A stretch of DNA of 44,388 nt from a virus, in the IMG/VR virus record IMGVR_UViG_3300029448_007258, positions 1 to 44,388 of that record. One strand, written 5' to 3'. The notes beneath the pieces were generated by a model. That model did no database searches. It was not told where the DNA came from and saw only the letters and a program-made list of their open reading frames with translations. Of this stretch, positions 181-38,129 are shown in pieces (position 1 is the first letter of the stretch; every line of letters starts with the position of its first letter). The translations under genes and the position numbers were made by a program.

Positions 181-798
181 CTATATTAAATTATCAAATA
201 ATGTCTCTGCTAGTTTCTTACCAAACTCTTTGTCTGATGGGTAATGAGCTTTAGCAATTATTCTTGATTCAGCTACATCCTCTCCCAGCTGCATAAATTC
301 TTTTCTATATTCAGGATGCCTTTCAGAATAAATTTTACCTAATAAGTAACCTTGTGTTGCGTGGCCGCTTGGATAGGATGGTGTATTCATAGAATCCATA
401 TTGAAGTTACTAACGTCCATATGATAAAACTCAGCTATCTGATAAGGTCTTGGTCTGTTATATTTATACTTCAGTTCCATAAGGTACTTAGCAGATTGTT
501 TAAGTAACTCATCAGCTTCTTCTTTATTAAATTCTAAATCTAAATCTTCAAATAGATTTTTAAAAACTTTAGTAACATCATCATGCTCTTCCACAAACTT
601 TTTATCTACGCTTTGTTGTTCTAAATATTTTAATTCAGATAGTGTTTCTTTACTACCATTCTCAGGAAAAGGATTTTCTTCCATAGTAAAATCTTCAAAC
701 ATAGTTACGGGGTAGTCCATTCTCTTCTGGTGCTTTGGTTTAGGACCTTTATTATATGTCATCTCATTTATATGTAATAAATCTTTTAGTTTAAGCAT
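181..798 (-). CDS. PAP2-family acid phosphatase with capsid-targeting-like N-terminus
   Basis: A 205-residue protein. I place the start at the ATG at 798, not 816, because GAGGGTGG sits just upstream and because it gives MLKLKDLLHINE, the N-terminal peptide shared with its neighbours. The C-terminal half carries the complete PAP2/vanadium-haloperoxidase phosphatase signature: K-x6-R-P (about residues 110-118), PSGH (143-146) and S-R-x5-H-x3-D (178-189). All catalytic residues are present, so it should be an active phosphomonoesterase. It lacks membrane helices and a signal peptide, unusual for this family. The N-terminal peptide ends I-N-E, a plausible prohead-protease site, so the enzyme may be packaged in the head. 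It overlaps the preceding HAD gene by 8 bases. Confidence 0.85.
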   Translation of the reverse strand: MLKLKDLLHINEMTYNKGPKPKHQKRMDYPVTMFEDFTMEENPFPENGSKETLSELKYLEQQSVDKKFVEEHDDVTKVFKNLFEDLDLEFNKEEADELLKQSAKYLMELKYKYNRPRPYQIAEFYHMDVSNFNMDSMNTPSYPSGHATQGYLLGKIYSERHPEYRKEFMQLGEDVAESRIIAKAHYPSDKEFGKKLAETLFDNLI

Positions 799-2147: not shown

Positions 2148-2633
2148 TTAATCTTCCAATGGATTAGCTGCTTTAGCCTTTGCTGAAAATTCTACGAAAT
2201 GTTTTTTATAAAGTTTCATAAGTTCTAAAGCCTTCTTTTTATCTCTTTTAGCAACATCGTTTTTAATAAGGTCTTTAATAATTTTATCACATCTTTGCAT
2301 AGCAACCATTACCTGTGTAGCGATAACTTGGTTTGTTGTAAGTTCATTTACAGATTCATTATATCTCTTATCCTTTAATAAATCCATCATAAGCTTTGAT
2401 TTTGAATGTATGTATTCTACTTCTTCTTTTGTAGTTAAATCGTTTTGATTCTTTATAGCTCTCATTAGGTTTTTAGCAGAGTCCATTAGATATTTAGCTT
2501 GTCCTTTTATTTCCATAAACCCTCTTCTTGTTATAGCTTCAACTACTGATTCTACTTTAAAGGGTGGTCTATCTTTATCTGTATAGACTTTACCTAATTC
2601 TAAATCTTTAATCATATCTTTTAATTTTACCAT
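2148..2633 (-). CDS. Putative internal head protein, helical, prohead-protease-like sites
   Basis: A 161-residue helical, lysine-rich protein. It opens with MVKLKDMIKDLE, a looser copy of the shared leader. ESVVE-A at 28-33 and ESVNE-L at 93-98 are the same pentapeptide class as in neighbouring genes and bracket a helical middle domain (33-97), leaving a helical C-terminal domain (98-161). The start ATG overlaps the end of the 400-residue gene. I recognise no family; role inferred from leader, sites and context. Confidence 0.72.
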   Translation of the reverse strand: MVKLKDMIKDLELGKVYTDKDRPPFKVESVVEAITRRGFMEIKGQAKYLMDSAKNLMRAIKNQNDLTTKEEVEYIHSKSKLMMDLLKDKRYNESVNELTTNQVIATQVMVAMQRCDKIIKDLIKNDVAKRDKKKALELMKLYKKHFVEFSAKAKAANPLED

Positions 2634-3829
2634 TTTCTACAGCTCCAGTAACGGGCTTTATGTCTTGGCCCTGGTGAATCACAATTATGTCTAGCTCTGA
2701 ATGATTTTCTGGCACCTGGATTAGACTTACGAATCTTCATAGTTCCACCCTTAGCCTTACCACCTTGTCCAAAGTTAACCTTAACAACATTACCCTTTGG
2801 GTTCTTAACATACACCTTAAACTTCTTTGCATCACCTTGCATAATCTTACCGAGCTTTACTTTTCTACCTTGGTATTCAGCCTCATTTAGTTTACCGTCA
2901 TTTATATGCTCAAATGTATATCCGTAACCTTTACCATCTGACTCATAGAATATTTCTGTAATTTCTTTTACACAATTAGGCACCATCTTACCACCTTTGT
3001 CTTTCATACCCTTTTGTTGGTAACCTACCCAGCAAGTTCCTCTAGCTTCATTTCTTTTTTTCTTCATACTTTTTTTGAGGTCTTTTGGTAATGCTTTCAA
3101 ATCATCTAAACCTTCATTAGCCATTTTAAGAGCATTCTTTACTTTCTTATCTTTGGATAATCCCTTTTTAATCTTTTCAATTGCCTTAACAGCACCTGTC
3201 ATATTACCACCCATCACAAGAGCTATACTTACTGCCTGTCTTTGGTGGTTGCTTAATTTTTTAAAAAATGGACTAAGACCTATATCTCTTATAGAGTATC
3301 CCTCTCCCATAGATTGGAGTCCTATAAGTGCCATAGTCTTACCTCTTGGGGATGAATTACTATATGCTTTATTTACATATTTTAAATTCTTTTTAATCAT
3401 AGCTGCAGCATCCTTTGCACTACTTCCATACTTGATAAGAAGATTGTATATCTTCTTCATTTCAGGATTTACCCTTTCATCTACAGACTCCATACCAAGA
3501 TGACTTATCTTACCCATACCTGATTTACTTCTAAGTCTAATTGGTTTTTTCTTCTTTAATTTTTTGAGAGCATCCATATTCTTCTTTCTCTTCTTATTAT
3601 ATTTATTTAAGGTTTTACCAAACTTATCACCTAACCCTTCTTTCTTAGATTTATTACCCCAATTTTTTGCACCAGCTTTACGACATTTTACGAGAGCACC
3701 ACTAGCATAAGCGGATGGCCAGACATCGTATCTCGCTTTAACCTTATGGTAACAAGCATCCTTCTTACCAGCGGCTTCATCAAACTGAGCTTCTGTAATT
3801 GACTTACCAACTAATTCTTCTAACTTCAT
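2627..3829 (-). CDS. Multidomain basic head-peptide protein (possible polyprotein)
   Basis: A 400-residue, very basic protein. MKLEELVGKSITE (1-13) is the leader, with Ala after it. Three recognisable pieces follow: a Cys-containing segment (CYHKVKARYDVWPSAYASG, then LVKCRK-x-GA-x-NWG, 26-59) common in marine T4-like phages, then a run of Lys/Arg (60-110); a helical centre (120-290); and a C-terminal basic domain (about 317-400) ending HNCDSPGPRHKARYWSCRKW, also known from marine phages as an unnamed conserved domain. Candidate cleavage sites ITE-A (13), SVDE-R (118), ITE-I (292) and LNE-A (316) fall between these pieces. The polybasic character suits DNA contact inside the capsid. Confidence 0.75.
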   Translation of the reverse strand: MKLEELVGKSITEAQFDEAAGKKDACYHKVKARYDVWPSAYASGALVKCRKAGAKNWGNKSKKEGLGDKFGKTLNKYNKKRKKNMDALKKLKKKKPIRLRSKSGMGKISHLGMESVDERVNPEMKKIYNLLIKYGSSAKDAAAMIKKNLKYVNKAYSNSSPRGKTMALIGLQSMGEGYSIRDIGLSPFFKKLSNHQRQAVSIALVMGGNMTGAVKAIEKIKKGLSKDKKVKNALKMANEGLDDLKALPKDLKKSMKKKRNEARGTCWVGYQQKGMKDKGGKMVPNCVKEITEIFYESDGKGYGYTFEHINDGKLNEAEYQGRKVKLGKIMQGDAKKFKVYVKNPKGNVVKVNFGQGGKAKGGTMKIRKSNPGARKSFRARHNCDSPGPRHKARYWSCRKW

Positions 3830-3838
3830 TACACTCTC

Positions 3839-4396
3839 CTACTTCTTTGGTTTGGTACTTACTCTGATTGGCTTCTTACCACCACCACTTATAGATGATG
3901 TACCGCCCCTACCAGCTTTATTTTGAGCCGCCCTCTTCCTACGTGTCGCTGACGCTTTTTGTTTTTTGGACATCCCAGCAGCCTTAGATGCTGGAACACA
4001 CTTAGCATACCCTCTTTTTTTTCCACTTGAACCACACGGTGGATGACCACCGCCCTTTTTCTTTTTACCGATATTAACCCACCTATCACTAAACCATTTC
4101 TTTAAGTTCTCATTTGCAAAGTCACCACAATTTTCACATATGTTGTCAGCTATCATACCAGCTTGTTCTAAAGTAACTGTAGTATCAATTCCTTCTTTCT
4201 TTACACAATTCCTATATCTCTTACCAAACATAACTTTTGTTTTACGAGTAGGATGTGTCATATATCCTTTTTGGCAAGCTTCATCTAAATCAAATTTTTT
4301 CTTCTTCAAAAGATGAGGGCCAGCTGGCTCATCGCCTAGCTGACCATCAACACCATAGCCACAAGTACCTTCTAATATTTCTTGTAACTTAATCAC
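3839..4396 (-). CDS. Basic Cys-containing phage protein with capsid-targeting-like leader
   Basis: A 185-residue protein starting with GTG at 4396, one base after the upstream stop codon. MIKLQEILEG (1-10) matches the shared leader with an L-E/G cut. The body has CQKGY...YRNCVKKEG (41-69), a CENCG pair (87-91) and a long basic C-terminus: RWVNIGKKKKGGGHPPCGSS (105-124), then KRGYAKCVPASKAAGMSKKQ. This RWVNI...GGG-x2-PCG...YPKC-type module recurs in cyanophages and other marine myoviruses as a hypothetical protein. The cysteines could bind zinc. It is probably a nucleic-acid-binding head protein; exact function unknown. Confidence 0.75.
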   Translation of the reverse strand: MIKLQEILEGTCGYGVDGQLGDEPAGPHLLKKKKFDLDEACQKGYMTHPTRKTKVMFGKRYRNCVKKEGIDTTVTLEQAGMIADNICENCGDFANENLKKWFSDRWVNIGKKKKGGGHPPCGSSGKKRGYAKCVPASKAAGMSKKQKASATRRKRAAQNKAGRGGTSSISGGGKKPIRVSTKPKK

Positions 4397-15886: not shown

Positions 15887-15990
15887 TACTCACTCTCTTT
15901 CTTTACACTCAACATTTTAACAATCATATCTAATTTCTTTTCTATTGACGCTAGAAGGTTAATAAGCTGATTTGATGTTTTTTCATCCAT
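15886..15990 (-). CDS. Very small helical protein
   Basis: 34 residues: MDEKTSNQLINLLASIEKKL then DMIVKMLSVKKESE. CAGGAG sits 7 bases upstream and it overlaps the Mom-like gene's end by 8 bases. One amphipathic helix; probable oligomerisation peptide. Function unknown. Confidence 0.65.
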   Translation of the reverse strand: MDEKTSNQLINLLASIEKKLDMIVKMLSVKKESE

Positions 15991-16747
15991 GATTTACTCC
16001 TGTTTTGTTATTATAAACTTTTACCTTTATTACTTCTGGTTCCATTATATCCGCTGTTTTAGGATAAGGAAATATAGGATGTTTTAGATTCTGTGTAGCC
16101 GTTCTCTTCTCTCTCTTAGTACCGAGCAGATACACATACCTATGTTTTCTCAACTCCTTCTTTACCCAAAAATCTTTCTCTACCAAGCTCTTCATCTTTT
16201 CTATGTTGTTTGTTCCATAATATGGAAATATAGTTCTACCATGTTGCCATTTACCATCCTCTTCCCATTTAAATAACCAACTGTCATTTGGTCTTATCCT
16301 ATTACCCTGATATAACCAATTGGTTGCTTGGTATATAGTACCTACATGACCTTGTTGGGGATCTGAGTATGATATGAGAGCCTTTATATCTTTTCTATTC
16401 TTCTTTAACCAATTAAAGCCTTCTCCTATCAGATACGATTCAACGTTACTTCCATAACCATCATGCACAAATAGTCTTACTAATTCGTATACATTTTCTC
16501 TTGGTATAGCAGCTGATATCGAAGCGCCTGAATGTCTACCTATCGGATCACCATAACATATTGTACCGATTAGTTTCTCTTCTGGCTCATCAAAAAATTG
16601 GTGTTCATTACCTGTGGTGTAATATAACCCTAAAGCTATACTACATTTAGTCCATTGTTTAGAGTAGTGGTATTTAACCACCATACTTTTAGCAACCTTT
16701 CTATCTATTTCCCTAACCGATAATTTTGAGGTATCTACATATTTCAT
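15983..16747 (-). CDS. mom: Mom-like DNA-modification GNAT protein
   Basis: 254 residues, close to Mu Mom. Features: KYHYSK (25-30), ELVRLF (88-93) and SYSDPQQGHVGTIYQATNW (126-144), the strongly conserved Mom core, then KHRYVYLLG (201-209). Mom is a GNAT-fold protein that hypermodifies adenine and shields phage DNA from restriction enzymes. The zinc-finger translational activator Com of Mu is not found nearby. Whether the same chemistry occurs cannot be read from sequence. Confidence 0.85.
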   Translation of the reverse strand: MKYVDTSKLSVREIDRKVAKSMVVKYHYSKQWTKCSIALGLYYTTGNEHQFFDEPEEKLIGTICYGDPIGRHSGASISAAIPRENVYELVRLFVHDGYGSNVESYLIGEGFNWLKKNRKDIKALISYSDPQQGHVGTIYQATNWLYQGNRIRPNDSWLFKWEEDGKWQHGRTIFPYYGTNNIEKMKSLVEKDFWVKKELRKHRYVYLLGTKREKRTATQNLKHPIFPYPKTADIMEPEVIKVKVYNNKTGVNHG

Positions 16748-18012: not shown

Positions 18013-18245
18013 GACATTATTTTCCATTTTGTAATTAAATCCAAAAACTCTGACACTTCGTATGTTCTTTTTTGTTCATCTACAATAGTTACAGTTTCTA
18101 ATAATTCGGGTTGTCTTACAACTATGTTATTTAAAGCCTTAAAACCATTACCTGTATAAAACGTTTCAAAGGATTCTTCTCCTAAAATGTTTTCATCCCA
18201 TATATCTTCTATGGAATCGTTGTCTAATAATATATAGTATGTCAT
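18009..18245 (-). CDS. Hypothetical acidic protein
   Basis: 78 residues (MTYYILLDNDSIEDIWDENI...), last gene of the sugar-block run and overlapping the epimerase stop by 4 bases. Alternating strands and helices, no recognised domain. Its 3' end overlaps promoter P8. Confidence 0.6.
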   Translation of the reverse strand: MTYYILLDNDSIEDIWDENILGEESFETFYTGNGFKALNNIVVRQPELLETVTIVDEQKRTYEVSEFLDLITKWKIMS

Positions 18246-19159
18246 TTTTTTAAAATGTAGTTTTCTTTAATAAATTTTATGATGTCCCCATTTGGTTTCC
18301 AATCCAATACATCCCTAGCTTTAGTATCTGTGTTTAGAGTCTCTCTCATCTCACCTGGCCTAGCTTCAATATGCTCTGTAGGATAATCTCCGAATGCTTT
18401 AGCTAATTCGTTGATAGAACGATTATTACCGTTACCCAATTCAAATGATTGGCCATTAACATCACCATTACCCCAAACATCTAAATGAGCTTCACCACAT
18501 CTAACTAGCCCATCAACAATGTCACCCACATAGGTAAAATCTCTTCGTTGTTCACCATCACCTGTAATGGTTAGTGGTTCTCCATTACTGAATTGTCTTT
18601 GGAATATACCCAACACATTACAATAACTACCCTCACTTGCTTGATGTTCCCCATACACATTATAGAATCTACAAATAGAAGTTGGAACTTCAAATAGTTT
18701 ATTATATAGTTCCAATAGATGTTCATTTTGCCACTTGGTAAATGTGTAAGGATTAGCATAAACATCACCTGTAACTGATGATGATCCAGCATATATTACC
18801 GGCGTATGAGAATGTTTAGCCCAATCCAATACATTGATTGTTGCTAAAGGACCTGCTTTAAATGTATCAACAGGGTTTTCAAATGATGGAACAATTCTTG
18901 GTAGAGCAGCTAGGTGATATATTATATCAACTGGTTCTATCTGACAATCACAAGACCACTCACAATAATCCTCATCCCATAAAGCCCACCAAATTTTATT
19001 TGACAAGTCTTTATGATAATATTTACATCCCTCTTGTTCATTTTCTTTTTTACCTGTTGAGTAATTGTCTACCGAAATAACCTCATGACCATCTTTTAAC
19101 AACCTCTTTATTAAGTTAGTACCAACAAACCCAGCTCCACCAGTTACTAAGACTCGCAT
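18242..19159 (-). CDS. NAD-dependent sugar epimerase/dehydratase (SDR)
   Basis: 305 residues. MRVLVTGGAGFVGTNLIKRL is the Rossmann NAD site (GxxGxxG), VDNYSTGKKEN the usual second strand, and Y-TFT-K gives the catalytic Tyr-x3-Lys (about 159-163). Closest in style to UDP-glucose 4-epimerase or dTDP-glucose 4,6-dehydratase relatives. The exact substrate is not readable. It sits among glycosyltransferase genes. Confidence 0.85.
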   Translation of the reverse strand: MRVLVTGGAGFVGTNLIKRLLKDGHEVISVDNYSTGKKENEQEGCKYYHKDLSNKIWWALWDEDYCEWSCDCQIEPVDIIYHLAALPRIVPSFENPVDTFKAGPLATINVLDWAKHSHTPVIYAGSSSVTGDVYANPYTFTKWQNEHLLELYNKLFEVPTSICRFYNVYGEHQASEGSYCNVLGIFQRQFSNGEPLTITGDGEQRRDFTYVGDIVDGLVRCGEAHLDVWGNGDVNGQSFELGNGNNRSINELAKAFGDYPTEHIEARPGEMRETLNTDTKARDVLDWKPNGDIIKFIKENYILKK

Positions 19160-30308: not shown

Positions 30309-31044
30309 TTAACATCTCCAATTTTTCAACATCCTTACACACTCTTTTTATATCTTCATAATATCTACCATGACCTTTTGCTGGATTCACTCCCCATGGT
30401 TTGTGTAATCCAAATGGTGCTTTATCATCTAATGGATTAATGTATCCATTATCTATTGAAAAGCTTATCACATCTTTCACCTTTGGTTTAGTCCTTATCC
30501 TATCTGTTACAAAGTAATCCTCACAAGGATTTCCACCCCTATCTAAATATGGCTGTAATTCGTTTTTAATTATATCCAACATAAAACTTTTCTTTCTAAT
30601 TGACAACCCACCATTCATAACTCTATCATAAGATTCGTCAATAGATCTAGGATTAAAGCTACCACCCCACCATCCACCGATATAATCAAAGTGTTCAAAG
30701 TCTTTAACATTGTATTCTGAATTAGTACATAGCATCGAATCACATTCAAAATACAATACAGTTTCACCAACCACCTTATTCCAAAAATCTTCTGTCAACA
30801 TAATCTCTAAGCTAGAATCATCAGCACTAATTGACTCTATATTAAGATTAGTAAATGTTGTTTTCTTTTTGACATTACTCAAAAAATCATCATCAAACAT
30901 AATATCATTAATATAATCGTAGTTATTAGAGCCATGAAATATCTGTAACTTCCACTCATCTGGTAGAATAGACATAACATTACTCAATACAAATGGAAGA
31001 GCCATGTGTTTTCTTGTCTCCACTATTACTGCTACTTTTTCCAT
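30298..31044 (-). CDS. DUF5672-type putative glycosyltransferase
   Basis: 248 residues. VLYFECDSMLCTN supplies an acid pair, FDYIGGWWGG and RVMNGGLSIRKKSFMLDIIK are the characteristic DUF5672 segments, and a conserved CEDYFVT follows. These proteins look like GT-A enzymes. Donor unknown. Confidence 0.75.
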   Translation of the reverse strand: MEKVAVIVETRKHMALPFVLSNVMSILPDEWKLQIFHGSNNYDYINDIMFDDDFLSNVKKKTTFTNLNIESISADDSSLEIMLTEDFWNKVVGETVLYFECDSMLCTNSEYNVKDFEHFDYIGGWWGGSFNPRSIDESYDRVMNGGLSIRKKSFMLDIIKNELQPYLDRGGNPCEDYFVTDRIRTKPKVKDVISFSIDNGYINPLDDKAPFGLHKPWGVNPAKGHGRYYEDIKRVCKDVEKLEMLNGL

Positions 31045-32672
31045 GCTTTACTCACCAAAATACCATAGTCTCTAAAGTATAGATAGTCTATATTAGTTCT
31101 TAAAAAACAATCCAATGCGTGTTCTGGAGTTTCTACTATAGGTTCTCTATCGTTAAAGCTTGTGTTAAGAACTATTGGAACACCAGTCCTTTCTCTAAAC
31201 TTATCTATGAAATTATAATACCATTCATTATCTTCCTTACTGACAGTTTGTAATCTAGCCGTATCATCGAAGTGAACTACTGCTGGAACTTTTTCAGACA
31301 TACCCTCTTTAAATTTCATAGCTAAATTCATATACGGACTGTCAGCATCATGAACAAACCAATCCTTAACATAATCCCTCAGTACCGATGGAGCAAATGG
31401 TCTGAACCATTGTCTATGTTTAACCCTTTCATTGACTATATCTTTTGTTTCTGCGTGTGTCGGGTCAGCTAAAATACTTCTATTACCTAAAGCCCTTCTA
31501 CCCGATTCCGAACCACCACCGAATACCGATATTATTTTCTTATTAATCATTGTTTGTACTACATAATCATCATCAGCCCCTATGACTTCAATTTCATCTT
31601 CTCTTTCTTTTATAGCAGCCTCAACCTCACTTTCTGAATATGTATAACCCAAATATGGACTCCAATTCTGTGGCGTATCTTTTATTCTTGGATTATCTAA
31701 TATATGATGCCATACATATCTAGAAGAACCTAAAGATAATCCAGCATCATATGGTATTGGATCTACAAATATATTTATACCAGGAAACCAATCTAACATC
31801 TTACCTACAGATACACAATTAAGACTTACCCCACCTGATAGACATAGGTTTTTTGGTTTGTGTTCTTCGATGTATGGAGTTAATAAGGCTCTGATAACTT
31901 TCTCTGTTTCTTTTTGTAGAGAGGCTGATATGTCAAACCTATTCTGTTCTTCTTTATCAGCTTCTTTTTTTAGATAATCAAAGTCTATCGAACCTGCGCC
32001 ATCTCCACCAAATAAACCATCTGTTAGTTTATTTTCAAAGTAAGACATATACTTTTCTGGATTCCCCAAAGCAGCCATTCCCATTACAGTACCTGCTTGG
32101 TCTCCTCTTGGGTCTCTCCAAGTTCCAAGACCAAATATTTTACTTGTACACATAGACCAATCTTTTCCTAAATTTATAGCTCCATTTGGAATTATTTCTA
32201 ATGGTTTTATTTTATTTCCCTTACCACTCCAAAAAGTAGTACAGGTTACCAAAGCATTTTTAATCGTATCAATATCAGATTTATTATGTAACGAGCCATC
32301 TCCATTGTCAATACCACCACCATCAATTGTAACAATCAATGCCTCTTCATAGTCGCTAGTAAAAAAAGCATTAGCTGCATGAGATTGGTGGTGACCTATG
32401 ATATAAAGTTCTCCACCATTTTTTTCAATTATCTCTTGACATCTATTGAAAGAATCCATATATTTGTTATCAACCATACCACCAGTACGATGTGTCACCA
32501 TATATTTTATATCATCTAAATCATTTTCATTATCTAAAAAGAATTGTATTGAATTAGCAACTGAGTTTTTTCTTCTGTTAAATCTTTCCAATTCATTGTG
32601 TATTGTTGGTATACCATCTTCTAATATACTATAAGCTGAATCATGTCCGCTGTGAAACCCTACTATTTTCAT
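31032..32672 (-). CDS. NodU/CmcH-type carbamoyltransferase
   Basis: 546 residues, full length. MKIVGFHSGHDSAYSILEDG, GHHQSHAANAF (93-103) and a C-terminal YrdC-like/transferase part with GGGSESGRRALGNRSILADP and FRPFAPSVLRDY. The His-x3-His metal site is intact. It moves a carbamoyl group from carbamoyl phosphate to a hydroxyl, here probably a sugar. An unusual phage cargo. Confidence 0.9.
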   Translation of the reverse strand: MKIVGFHSGHDSAYSILEDGIPTIHNELERFNRRKNSVANSIQFFLDNENDLDDIKYMVTHRTGGMVDNKYMDSFNRCQEIIEKNGGELYIIGHHQSHAANAFFTSDYEEALIVTIDGGGIDNGDGSLHNKSDIDTIKNALVTCTTFWSGKGNKIKPLEIIPNGAINLGKDWSMCTSKIFGLGTWRDPRGDQAGTVMGMAALGNPEKYMSYFENKLTDGLFGGDGAGSIDFDYLKKEADKEEQNRFDISASLQKETEKVIRALLTPYIEEHKPKNLCLSGGVSLNCVSVGKMLDWFPGINIFVDPIPYDAGLSLGSSRYVWHHILDNPRIKDTPQNWSPYLGYTYSESEVEAAIKEREDEIEVIGADDDYVVQTMINKKIISVFGGGSESGRRALGNRSILADPTHAETKDIVNERVKHRQWFRPFAPSVLRDYVKDWFVHDADSPYMNLAMKFKEGMSEKVPAVVHFDDTARLQTVSKEDNEWYYNFIDKFRERTGVPIVLNTSFNDREPIVETPEHALDCFLRTNIDYLYFRDYGILVSKAWKK

Positions 32673-33475: not shown

Positions 33476-34615
33476 TTAATACAATATTTTTTTAATTTCT
33501 TGACTAACTTCTTTTGATTTAATCAAAGTCATACACTTACCATCATACGGACAAGGGAATTGGTCGTGGCAGCTTAAACAATCCAATTCCTTTCTGACAA
33601 ACTTTTTTCCAAGACCAAGCAAATCTGTTTCTTGATAAGGTGTAGGTCCATAAAAGGTAATGATGTTCTTTTTAAATGTAATGGCTAGATGTAAAGCCAT
33701 CGTATCACCTGTAACAACTACCTTAGATAAGTTTACTAAAAAACAAAACTCTTCTATTGTGTATTTGTCTGTAGTATTAATAATATTATCAGATGTATAT
33801 GAATTTGATAGTTTATAATTTCTTCTTATTTCATCTTGACCACCAGCTAATATTATCTTATTATTTGAATCTTTTAGTAAGTCACCAATTAATTCTTCGT
33901 AACCATCATATGTCCATTTTTTATGTGGAAACACAGGACCACATCCGGTGTTTAGTAAAATTAGATTATCAGCTGATGTAATATTATTCTCTTTACAGAA
34001 CTTAGACTCAAATTGTTTATACTTAGAATCATCCAAGTTAACAATCATTCTCTCATTATCAAACTCTAACTCAGAAGCCTCAAATATCATTTCTTGATAA
34101 GTCTTTGTATTACTTTGTTTAGCTCCCCAATTGTCTAGACAAATATCATAGTGATATTTAGTTCCATCGTTCAGAGGGAAAGGATAACCATCGGTAGATA
34201 AACCATAACCTCGCTTATCATTTGAATTAAATAATGTAATCATAGATGTTGCTTTTGAATCTTTGTCTAAATTTATTATTGTATCAAACTCTTGGCATTG
34301 TAATGCCCTTACAGTCTCATCATTGTATGAAAGCACTTCATCAATAAACTTATTACCTTTTAAGAAAAAAATAGATTGAGGTTGAGTTAACCAAATTAGC
34401 TTACAATTCGGATATTTCTTTTTAATTCCCTCTGCTAAGGGTGTACATCTTATAACATCACCCAAAGCATCTAATTTTATCAGTAATATTCTATGTGAGT
34501 ATTTTTCGTAGTAAGGACTGTTACTATCCCAACAGTCATGCTTTCTATCTAACCAATAATATTCACAGGGCCTATCACCTTTGAACTTCTTACACGAGCC
34601 AGTCTTTGAAATCAC
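33476..34615 (-). CDS. ADP-heptose-type glycosyltransferase (GT9)
   Basis: 379 residues. RILLIKLDALGDVIRCTPLA (about 43-62) is the GT9 opening; LILLNTGCGPVFPHKKWTYD and VVTGDTMALHLAITFKKNII followed by FYGPT are the donor-binding half. A Cys-rich N-terminus (about 1-35) and a Cys-rich tail (LDCLSCHDQFPCPYDGKCMT) suggest a bound metal. It neighbours heptose-biosynthesis genes, consistent with heptosyltransferase. Confidence 0.85.
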   Translation of the reverse strand: MISKTGSCKKFKGDRPCEYYWLDRKHDCWDSNSPYYEKYSHRILLIKLDALGDVIRCTPLAEGIKKKYPNCKLIWLTQPQSIFFLKGNKFIDEVLSYNDETVRALQCQEFDTIINLDKDSKATSMITLFNSNDKRGYGLSTDGYPFPLNDGTKYHYDICLDNWGAKQSNTKTYQEMIFEASELEFDNERMIVNLDDSKYKQFESKFCKENNITSADNLILLNTGCGPVFPHKKWTYDGYEELIGDLLKDSNNKIILAGGQDEIRRNYKLSNSYTSDNIINTTDKYTIEEFCFLVNLSKVVVTGDTMALHLAITFKKNIITFYGPTPYQETDLLGLGKKFVRKELDCLSCHDQFPCPYDGKCMTLIKSKEVSQEIKKILY

Positions 34616-35255
34616 TTAAAAAACCCTTTACTGAATAGTCTGTCATTGGATGTTCTAAGATGCCTGGAAATAAGTTGTAACCAGCAGTAACAATGTGACC
34701 ACCAGCTGCCCAAGACTGCACTATATCCCTTTCCTTTCTTATACTACCAACTATAATTTCAGAATTTATATTATTTTTATCAAAATTATTTCTTACATTT
34801 GTAAGAACTTTCAATGGATTTCCACCATAGTCTAATAACCTATTATAAAATAGTGAAACGTATCTAGCCCCAGCCAATGCTGCTAACTCCATCTGAGCTT
34901 CAGTAAAACAGCAAGTTACATTTACATCAATATCCTCTTTGTGTAATTTACTAACCACTTCAAGTTCTTCATAACCAACAGGTATTTTAATATTTAAATT
35001 TTCATATTCTAATGCATCATATATTTCTAATGCTTGTGAATACATCTCAGCTGGCTTTTCTGCAAATACCTCAACACTTAATGGAACGTTATCATACTCC
35101 TCACAAATTTCTGTAATTTTATCAATATGTTTTATGAAATCTGATTTCGGTTCTTTTGACATTAATGATGGATTCGTAGTAACACCACTAACAAACCCTT
35201 TTTTTAATGTTTCTTCGATATGTTCTAAATTAGCTGTATCTATAAAAAATTCCAT
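34590..35255 (-). CDS. talC: Transaldolase (TalC/FSA type)
   Basis: 221 residues, complete. Asp6, TTNPS (26-30), NIKIPV with Schiff-base Lys90, CCFTEAQMELAALAGARYVS and GSIRKERDI match small transaldolases. Cyanophages carry related genes to boost the pentose phosphate flow. Here the neighbours are heptose genes, so making or draining sedoheptulose 7-phosphate may be its role. Confidence 0.9.
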   Translation of the reverse strand: MEFFIDTANLEHIEETLKKGFVSGVTTNPSLMSKEPKSDFIKHIDKITEICEEYDNVPLSVEVFAEKPAEMYSQALEIYDALEYENLNIKIPVGYEELEVVSKLHKEDIDVNVTCCFTEAQMELAALAGARYVSLFYNRLLDYGGNPLKVLTNVRNNFDKNNINSEIIVGSIRKERDIVQSWAAGGHIVTAGYNLFPGILEHPMTDYSVKGFLSDFKDWLV

Positions 35256-35257
35256 AA

Positions 35258-35677
35258 TTACTCCTTATCTTCTATGAATTTATAACTGTGTCCATCTTCC
35301 ACTAAGTGTGAATCTCCATCATCATCTTTAGTGGAAGCTTCTATTATTACTGTGTCCTCTAATGCCATTCTCATATGCATTAAACCTGGTTTTATGTGAA
35401 ATACATCACCTTTTTGTAGTATGATAGATTTGTTTTTAGCTCTTCCAACTCTTAAACCAACTTTTAACAAACCTGAATCAATATAGTATGATTCAACTTT
35501 TTTTACGTGATATTCTAAACTACTCTGTGAACCCTTTCTCATAAAAATCTTTTTTACACTATAATCATCTGTTTCAAATAGCGTGTCCATATGTCCCCAA
35601 TATTTATCAATACTTTTTATTGGTTTCTCTATCGGTGGAATATCTGTTATCCCATATTCAATTTCTTTATTGTCCAT
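35258..35677 (-). CDS. Cupin, mannose-6-phosphate isomerase type II-like
   Basis: ATG 35677 gives 139 residues (upstream start 35719 is possible). KYWGHMDTLF, MRKGSQSSLEYHVKKVESYY and LQKGDVFHIKPGLMHMRMAL form the single cupin barrel of type II phosphomannose isomerase relatives; one or two metal His remain. Possible sugar isomerase or epimerase. Confidence 0.75.
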   Translation of the reverse strand: MDNKEIEYGITDIPPIEKPIKSIDKYWGHMDTLFETDDYSVKKIFMRKGSQSSLEYHVKKVESYYIDSGLLKVGLRVGRAKNKSIILQKGDVFHIKPGLMHMRMALEDTVIIEASTKDDDGDSHLVEDGHSYKFIEDKE

Positions 35678-36347
35678 AATAACTATTTTCTCCGTGTTTT
35701 CTAAAAAAGTGTTTGTCAATTAAATTGGTATCCATTTTAACATCGGTAAGTATACAAGTACGATAAGCTAACTTAGCAACGTGTTCTAAAACTATAGCAT
35801 TTTCTACAGCATCTATTATAGACTCACCCCACACTACTGGCCCGTGACTTGGTAAAAGAGCAGCTTTCATATGTAATGGATTTATCTTATTTTCTTTAAA
35901 AAAGTTTACTATAGACTTACCACTATTCTTTTCAAAGTCATTGTCTATTTCATTTTTGGTTAAATCATTTACTACTGGAATTTCACCATAAAAGTAATCA
36001 GAATGTGTTGTTCCCACACAAGGTATTGGTAGTTTAGATTGTGAAAATATAGTAGCATATTCAGAGTGAGTATGTACTACGCTCGTAACACCATCAAATC
36101 CTTTGTATATTTCTAAATGTATGTCCGTGTCTACTGACGGCTTGTATTCAGATTCGATTTGGTATTTTTCTTTATTTGACATAGCAACCGTAACTAAATC
36201 ACTCCATCCTAAATCTTGAACAGGAACTCCTGATGGTGTTATAGTAACTAAATCTTTGTTAGTATCACTTCTAAAACTGACATTTCCCCAAGAACCAATT
36301 ACCAAACCACTTTCACATATTTTTTTATATCCATCGTACACATTCAT
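35667..36347 (-). CDS. Class II aldolase/AraD-family protein
   Basis: 226 residues. GSWGNVSFRS, TPSG, VVHTHSEYATIFSQSKLPIP (zinc His pair) and LPSHGPVVWG are the class II aldolase/adducin motifs; the third zinc His lies in LEHVAK. It acts on sugar phosphates as aldolase or 4-epimerase. Position between kinase and cupin genes suggests sugar-phosphate supply. Confidence 0.86.
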   Translation of the reverse strand: MNVYDGYKKICESGLVIGSWGNVSFRSDTNKDLVTITPSGVPVQDLGWSDLVTVAMSNKEKYQIESEYKPSVDTDIHLEIYKGFDGVTSVVHTHSEYATIFSQSKLPIPCVGTTHSDYFYGEIPVVNDLTKNEIDNDFEKNSGKSIVNFFKENKINPLHMKAALLPSHGPVVWGESIIDAVENAIVLEHVAKLAYRTCILTDVKMDTNLIDKHFFRKHGENSYYGQ

Positions 36348-37288
36348 TAGATATTCTCCAAATAATATTTTAGTTGTTTTTTCTTCGGACAGATTGTTCC
36401 GTGATTTTCAACAGACAGTCCAGCCCAACAATTACTAATAAATAGTGAATCTTCTGGAGACTCTTTCCAATTTGTTAAACATAAGGCAGAAATAAAACTA
36501 TCCCCAGCACCACATGGGTCTACCTCTTCAATGTCTATAACTTCACTATGATATTTCTCACCACCCATAAATAAAGTAGAACCACCCCTGCCACTTGTAA
36601 CACAAATATCACAACCAAATATTTGCGGTAAATCTTCTATAGATTGATTTTTACCTAAATTAAATTCAGCTTCTAATTTATTCATAACGATTAAATCAGC
36701 ACCTTTAAAATTAATATGATTTGAAACTAGTCCCCTACCATAATCTGATATCTGTGAACTAACAACTATTGGTATTGATTTTTTATTTAGAACAGGCATC
36801 AATCTATTTAAAAAATCTTTTGTGAACAAACCATGTCTGTAATCTATCAACATTACAACATCGAATTTATCATCTAATGTATCCTCTATATTTTTAATCA
36901 TCTTATCTATTGATTCTTTCTTTATAGATTTATTATCTATTACATTTACCTGTAAATGTTTGTAATTAGAGCCGCCCCTTTCAATCCAAAACCTTTCTTT
37001 AATAGTATTTTTTCTATCATCTTCAACCACACTGTGTAGTTTAATATCCTTTATAGATTCATAGGTTTTTGTATACTCATCATCTCCAAGCAAAGTTAAG
37101 AAAGTTATATCAGCTCCAAGCTCTTTTAGATTACTGACAACATTTGCAGAACCACCAAACGTATGTTTCTTTTCTATAAGTTTGGATTTTAATGTGGGAG
37201 TTTCTAATGATAAACCTACAGCTTTAGCATAAGTCCAAACATCCAATATGACATCTCCTATCACAAGAACCTTTTTGTTATTAATCAT
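36347..37288 (-). CDS. hldA: Heptose-phosphate kinase (HldE N-domain/HldA, PfkB fold)
   Basis: 313 residues. KVLVIGDVILDVWTYAKAVG, TFGGSANVVSNLKELGADIT and the ATP motif VDPCGAGDSFISALCL identify the PfkB family, and the overall order fits the HldE kinase domain that makes heptose 1,7-bisphosphate. In this phage the adenylyltransferase half is a separate, RpiB-fused gene directly upstream in transcription. Confidence 0.85.
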   Translation of the reverse strand: MINNKKVLVIGDVILDVWTYAKAVGLSLETPTLKSKLIEKKHTFGGSANVVSNLKELGADITFLTLLGDDEYTKTYESIKDIKLHSVVEDDRKNTIKERFWIERGGSNYKHLQVNVIDNKSIKKESIDKMIKNIEDTLDDKFDVVMLIDYRHGLFTKDFLNRLMPVLNKKSIPIVVSSQISDYGRGLVSNHINFKGADLIVMNKLEAEFNLGKNQSIEDLPQIFGCDICVTSGRGGSTLFMGGEKYHSEVIDIEEVDPCGAGDSFISALCLTNWKESPEDSLFISNCWAGLSVENHGTICPKKKQLKYYLENI

Positions 37289-38129
37289 TATATCCCTTTA
37301 TTTTTTCTATAACATCTGTAGTAGATTTATCCGTTACTATTGGAAATATTTTTATGATTACATCTTCATTTATATCATCCCTTTCCCTTATCTCATCAGC
37401 AGTAAATTCACCACCTCTGACTACGACATCAGGATTAACACTTTCTCTAATACTTTTTGGATTAATATCATCAAAAATAACAACCTCATCAACACAATCA
37501 AGAGCTTGTATAACTGCCTTTCTGTCATTTTCAGAATTAATTGGTCTATCATCACCTTTTAACTTTTTAATAGAGTCATCAGAGTTTATAGCAACAATTA
37601 ATCTATCTCCGAATGTTTTAGCAAACTGTAGTAAACCTATATGTCCTGTATGTAATATATCAAAACACCCATTGGTAAAAACAATTTTATTAGGTTTTTG
37701 TTCTGAAATCTTCTCTACCCTCTTAACATGCCTACCTTCTCCAAATGGAGTTGAAATCCAAGAATCAACTATTTGTAAAGACTGTTTTTCGGTTGTTATC
37801 CAAGAACCAAGACATATAACATTTGAATCATTGTGTTCTCTAGTTAGTGGTGCTGTTTCTAAATTATGAACCAACGAGCCTCTTACATTTTTAAACCTAT
37901 TAACTGCTATACTCATACCAACACCAGTTCCACATATAAGTATACCAAAATCAGCGTCTTTTTTATCAACTATACTACCTAACTGATAGGCATAATCTGT
38001 ATAATCTACACTATTACTACCATCAGGCCCTAAGTCTATACAACTATAACCATTATCCTTTAAATATTCATACAATACTTTTTTTAATTCTACACCATTG
38101 TGGTCAGCTGCCAGTACTATTGTTTTCAT
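37281..38129 (-). CDS. Fusion: RpiB-family isomerase + heptose 1-phosphate adenylyltransferase
   Basis: 282 residues. Residues 1-142 are a full RpiB/LacAB isomerase: AADHNG (7-12), ICGTGVGMSIAVNRF (65-79, catalytic Cys66), REHNDSNVICLG (97-108) and EGRHVKRV. Residues 149-282 are an HldE-type cytidylyltransferase-fold adenylyltransferase: TNGCFDILHTGHIGLL (H160-x2-H163), VVRGGEF (237-243), STTDVIEKI (269-277). I know of no standard fusion of this kind. The isomerase may replace GmhA in converting sedoheptulose 7-phosphate, feeding the HldA-like kinase next door. Confidence 0.88.
   Translation of the reverse strand: MKTIVLAADHNGVELKKVLYEYLKDNGYSCIDLGPDGSNSVDYTDYAYQLGSIVDKKDADFGILICGTGVGMSIAVNRFKNVRGSLVHNLETAPLTREHNDSNVICLGSWITTEKQSLQIVDSWISTPFGEGRHVKRVEKISEQKPNKIVFTNGCFDILHTGHIGLLQFAKTFGDRLIVAINSDDSIKKLKGDDRPINSENDRKAVIQALDCVDEVVIFDDINPKSIRESVNPDVVVRGGEFTADEIRERDDINEDVIIKIFPIVTDKSTTDVIEKIKGYND

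Follow-up and report, generated by a model that had tools for sequence, protein, structure and literature searches.

A predicted soluble PAP2 phosphatase with a T4-type capsid-targeting-like leader in an uncultivated phage

A PAP2 phosphatase-like protein of 205 residues, encoded on the minus strand at positions 181 to 798 of the window (the whole stretch of DNA analysed, positions 1-44388 in a virus record 55,907 bases long), is a candidate internal head protein. With a probability that we put at roughly 0.6, on the basis of its N-terminal leader and of analogy with phage T4, this soluble class A-like enzyme would be packaged in the head of a T4-type phage and ejected with the DNA. Internal proteins of T4-type phages are already known, and what appears to be new is a complete PAP2 enzyme as cargo together with the loss of Glu10 from the leader.

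Family and fold of the PAP2 protein

The ORF list gives an upstream ATG at position 816 for this gene, and the ATG at 798 has a Shine-Dalgarno-like sequence, GAGGGTGG, ahead of it (positions 805 to 812); the PAP2 starts of two other records, L127 and L129, are also preceded by a sequence resembling GAGGGTGG. The 205-residue protein scored above the cut-off of the Pfam PAP2 family PF01569 (E 7.1e-8, 32.7 bits; cut-off 27.2), and the superfamily motifs Kx6RP, PSGH and SRx5Hx3D are found on the minus strand as K110-x6-R117-P118 (445 to 471), P143-S-G-H146 (361 to 372) and S178-R179-x5-H185-x3-D189 (232 to 267). The sequence-only reading had described the motifs as complete, and this was borne out: all three are exact, and K110, R117, P118, PSGH, R179, H185 and D189 showed no variation across 44 of 44 aligned phage homologues, S178 being nearly invariant. 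By the mechanism of the PAP2 family, His185 would be the nucleophile, His146 the acid, and K110, R117 and R179 the phosphate site.

The same reading had seen neither a signal peptide nor membrane spans, and the hydropathy scans agreed with it. The top 19-residue Kyte-Doolittle mean, -0.05 in the window protein and at most 1.45 in the 44 phage homologues, indicated no membrane span, and the maximum 10-residue hydropathy within the first 40 residues of the PAP2 protein (0.71) indicated no signal peptide; many of the cellular PAP2 homologues fetched have a strongly hydrophobic N-terminus, with 10-residue values of 2-3.6. When a profile of the 44 phage homologues was compared with the PDB, class A acid phosphatases came out on top (7f17/7f18, E about 1e-16; PhoN 2akc, 2e-14) and LpxE was far weaker, and the AlphaFold model of the protein (mean pLDDT 94.8, pTM 0.91) retrieved the same class A enzymes in Foldseek (7f17_C, E 1.1e-6, TM 0.63). 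By sequence and modelled fold, the PAP2 protein is thus a soluble enzyme nearest the class A acid phosphatases, its activity being predicted. A membrane PAP2 protein of the PgpB or LpxE type was ruled out by the zero spans and the weaker PDB and Foldseek matches.

Class A nonspecific acid phosphatases are secreted with a signal peptide. The phage protein resembles PhoN and PhoC in its PAP2 catalytic motifs, its soluble all-helical fold and its top PDB matches; unlike them, it has a leader and a basic linker in place of the signal peptide, and its score with the NCBIfam PhoC model was 31 against a cut-off of 430. PHROGs and PADLOC gave zero matches to the PAP2 protein, and INPHARED gave just three weak PAP2 matches (29-33% identity over about half of the query).

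Other genes were seen in the window, all on the minus strand. A sugar gene block at 33476-38129 (a transaldolase-like protein, RpiB fused to a cytidylyltransferase-like domain, a PfkB kinase, a family 9 (heptosyl) transferase and a class II aldolase) resembles a phage-borne pathway for heptose or a related sugar, and a carbamoyltransferase with both Pfam domains (31032-32672) lies within a glycan gene block. A Mom family protein at 15983-16747 (Pfam E 3e-45) suggests DNA base modification. A phage contig related to the window, L018, encodes at 18092-18535 on the plus strand a pilin-like protein that has a methylation motif at its N-terminus.

A leader common to otherwise unrelated genes

Residues 1-12 of the PAP2 protein (MLKLKDLLHINE; 763 to 798, minus strand) form a leader resembling a capsid targeting sequence (CTS), with a helix predicted at residues 4-11 and with Ile instead of Glu at residue 10, in an I-N-E stretch at 10-12. 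It is followed by a basic linker (residues 13-32; 703 to 762, minus strand) that occurs in leader-bearing PAP2 proteins and is missing from the leaderless branch. Five neighbouring minus-strand genes, otherwise unrelated, open with versions of the same leader. They encode a HAD phosphatase-like protein (791 to 1315; leader MIKLRDLLLE, with a cut predicted before KKLRVFDFDD), two proteins of no assigned function (1453 to 2145, MIKLKKLLTE/A; 2148 to 2633, leader-like start MVKLKDMIKDLE), a relative of PHROG 727 that has regions in common with cyanophages (2627 to 3829, MKLEELVGKSITE/A) and a member of PHROG 23735 (3839 to 4396, MIKLQEILE/G).

A DNA pattern for leader residues 1-8 only, used to scan viral_contigs, matched at least 120 loci, with 131 sites among the matches listed. 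Of these sites, 127 opened ORFs of at least 60 residues or open at the contig end (four short ones were dropped), and 117 ORFs were unique over the first 40 residues. Among the matches listed, 98 of 116 unique ORFs (one row ended earlier) had Glu at residue 10, a position outside the scan, against a Glu background of 6% in the rest of the leader-bearing proteins. With the pattern permuted at constant composition, the scan gave 20 sites in all and eight ORFs of at least 60 residues, one of them with Glu10. The head-targeting-like leader claimed from the sequence alone is therefore common to five neighbour genes and lies far above chance.

After removal of the leader, 110 cargos among the matches listed fell into 71 BLAST clusters. 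Pfam, run on the 63 cluster representatives of at least 90 residues, recognized 14 families, including NUDIX, phage lysozyme, AAA_33, zeta toxin, MPTase-PolyVal and PAP2, and PHROGs added a 5'-3' deoxyribonucleotidase. Across the 63 representatives the leader was nearly invariant at L4, L7, L8 and E10.

Head targeting and the missing processing residue

According to the accessible part of PMC9026906, the first 10 residues of T4 IPIII are enough for packaging, residues 4 and 7 of the T4 CTS mainly carry targeting and residues 8 and 10 processing, and Asp10 stops processing and not targeting. As in T4 IPI-III and Alt, a leader of about 10 residues is common here to otherwise unrelated proteins; as in the T4 CTS, it is hydrophobic at positions 4, 7 and 8 and has Glu10 in most of its cargo, and the S77 prohead protease is encoded in many of the same records. 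Its letters, MIKLKDLLxE, differ from those of the T4 internal proteins, among which a complete PAP2 enzyme is not named in the part of PMC9026906 that is accessible. From sequence and from these analogies we infer that the leader behaves as a T4-type capsid targeting sequence.

Head genes were sought in 40 leader-site records, namely 39 of the 80 displayed scan rows, picked for a length of at least about 20 kb, together with L129; in two of them, L103 and L123, the leader site holds just a short or truncated ORF. Over the Pfam cut-offs, S77 was present in 25 of the 40 and a gp23-type capsid protein in 19, and in all 12 gp23 proteins fetched a [VIL]xE motif, with A or S next to it on the C-terminal side, lay at about residue 60. 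Three PAP2 records (G024, G049 and G054) contain S77 or gp23 head genes. In the searches for these two head genes, neither PF03420 nor PF07068 scored in the fragmentary record of the window or in the 10 nearest PAP2 records (0 of 11), and 14 control genomes were silent too, so that this silence does not demonstrate absence; both searches did score in other phage records. Across the 18 leader-PAP2 records examined, which are fragments or of unestablished completeness, S77 was found in three and gp23 in five, so that the absence of head genes from such records weighs little.

The leader might instead serve a destination different from the prohead, for instance a membrane, a ribosome or a host complex. 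This idea is encouraged by the fragmentary record of the window, in which no head genes were found, and by the indirect character of the case for head targeting in this phage group. We regard it as very unlikely, because the register of the leader and its Glu10 fit the T4 CTS and the specificity of S77, because S77 accompanies the leader in so many records, and because of the junctions of the HAD family. Among the best 80 of 560 HAD relatives, 58 N-termini were unique and of at least three leader types, and in 58 of 58 a [LIVMF]xE motif lay no more than seven residues from the conserved HAD domain start. Many of the HAD homologues L338-L387 have a second, longer leader type (VEFGKVYSNP, then F..INE) that also ends in hydrophobic-x-Glu.

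The PAP2 leaders depart from this scheme at one position. The leader was kept in 20 of 20 distinct PAP2 proteins of the close clade, with M1, K3, L4 and L7 invariant in the aligned leaders, and it has the hydrophobic residues at 4 and 7 that mark a T4-type CTS (PMC9026906, accessible part). Glu10, on which processing in T4 depends, is present in nearly all other leader-bearing cargo but was missing from all 20 PAP2 proteins, and each of the 13 aligned leaders had Leu or Ile at residue 10. The PAP2 leader thus appears to have kept the T4 targeting positions and lost the usual processing position, and cleavage at residue 10, which the loss of Glu10 fails to support, is doubtful. Either the leader stays on, or its cleavage may have moved.

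A moved cut is a sub-case of the packaging proposal, in which a pro-piece would be removed from a head-targeted protein at [hydrophobic]-x-Glu, either with the Glu at 9-12 or near residues 35/36, where the leaderless homologues start. The first motif was found in 11 of the 20 leader-PAP2 proteins and the second, 5-12 residues ahead of the conserved P45, in 15; 19 had at least one of them, and the HAD family, too, shows longer pro-pieces that end in xE. Against this stand the post hoc character of a motif search over two regions, which gave no single fixed cleavage site across the 20 proteins, the lack of either motif in L245, and the predicted order of the N-terminal segment; we consider such a cut possible, though on the unlikely side. 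The predicted order of this segment, together with the conserved Leu or Ile at residue 10, would also suit a different history, in which the N-terminal helix, once a targeting sequence, has come to serve the PAP2 clade structurally or as a contact surface, and the protein is an ordinary late intracellular enzyme serving, for example, nucleotide salvage or phosphate release. In the AlphaFold model the helix at 4-11 is docked on the fold with pLDDT 86-94, so that it could be structural, whereas the leader of the HAD protein is disordered (mean pLDDT 49 over residues 1-10). However, leaderless PAP2 homologues manage without the helix, the invariant M1, K3, L4 and L7 recall the T4 targeting positions, and the neighbours of the PAP2 gene, in the window as in several relatives, are leader-bearing cargo; we hold this history to be unlikely, and favour packaging in the head.

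Distribution of the leader and proposed function

At least 237 PAP2 relatives were matched, of which the best 80 were kept; since the leader itself served as one of the two search patterns, leader-bearing members are favoured in this sample. When these 80 and two MAG contigs were sorted by rule, 13 of the 82 rows were leader-type, 46 began at the catalytic core and 23 had other N-termini, the last including proteins of 503-2007 residues with PAP2 inside. In the core tree the leader-bearing close clade came together, save for one intruding long branch (L252), and the 14 leaderless rows included formed one group (92/81). For the sequence-only reading, phage homologues that consistently lacked the leader would have been a refutation. 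The leader was present throughout the close clade and absent from 46 of the 82 rows; neither S77 nor gp23 was found in any of the 26 leaderless records examined, which are fragments or of uncertain completeness, so that among phages of the T4 type no consistent lack of the leader is seen. In 20 other PAP2 records (four leader-type, 16 other), S77 was present in six and gp23 over the cut-off in seven.

Very long phage proteins with a PAP2 domain (938-2007 residues) are encoded in L244 (4284-10304), L248 (4284-7097) and L309 (4782-8024), those of L244 and L309 scoring above the Pfam PAP2 cut-off, and the leaderless PAP2 genes of L288, L275 and L314 have an ORF of 1176-1590 residues upstream. Polyvalent and other injected phage effectors, as described in the accessible part of PMC5512222, are likewise enzymes that are predicted to be injected along with the phage DNA, and some phage PAP2 domains likewise lie inside proteins of 503-2007 residues; the PAP2 protein of the window differs from them in being single-domain with a short leader. 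The words 'phosphatase' and 'PAP2' have no occurrence in the main text of that paper.

According to the packaging proposal, the amphipathic leader, hydrophobic at 4, 7 and 8, would bind the prohead core like the T4 CTS. It would probably escape cutting at residue 10 and either remain attached, docked against the catalytic domain, or be cut in some members at another [hydrophobic]-x-Glu. In the new host the enzyme, having no signal peptide, would be active in the cytoplasm, by way of a His-phosphate intermediate. The co-tagged NUDIX, deoxynucleotidase and HAD cargos act on nucleotides or phosphate esters, and our guess is therefore that nucleotides or other small phosphate esters are likelier substrates than lipids. 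To our knowledge, few injected phage enzymes are known. The open-licence literature searched showed no PAP2 protein or acid phosphatase in phage virions or among injected proteins, and did not contradict the earlier remark that no described case was known. Among injected T4 proteins, Ip1-3 block type IV restriction (PMC12373910, accessible part), which makes an anti-defence role for an injected PAP2 enzyme plausible by analogy. A bolder version, tentative and unlikely, makes the PhoN-like phosphatase an injected first-minute effector with an uncut, docked targeting helix that destroys host signalling nucleotides or defence messengers on entry, one of the many interchangeable leader-tagged enzymes with which uncultivated T4-type phages would be armed.

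The leader offers a sequence handle, since one scan led to at least 71 unrelated cargo clusters. These include NUDIX, zeta-toxin-like kinase, lysozyme, metallopeptidase, deoxynucleotidase, HAD and PAP2 proteins. Should the leader indeed load heads, the PAP2 protein would show targeting without the usual processing, and sequence alone would suffice to list the effectors that uncultivated T4-type phages inject.
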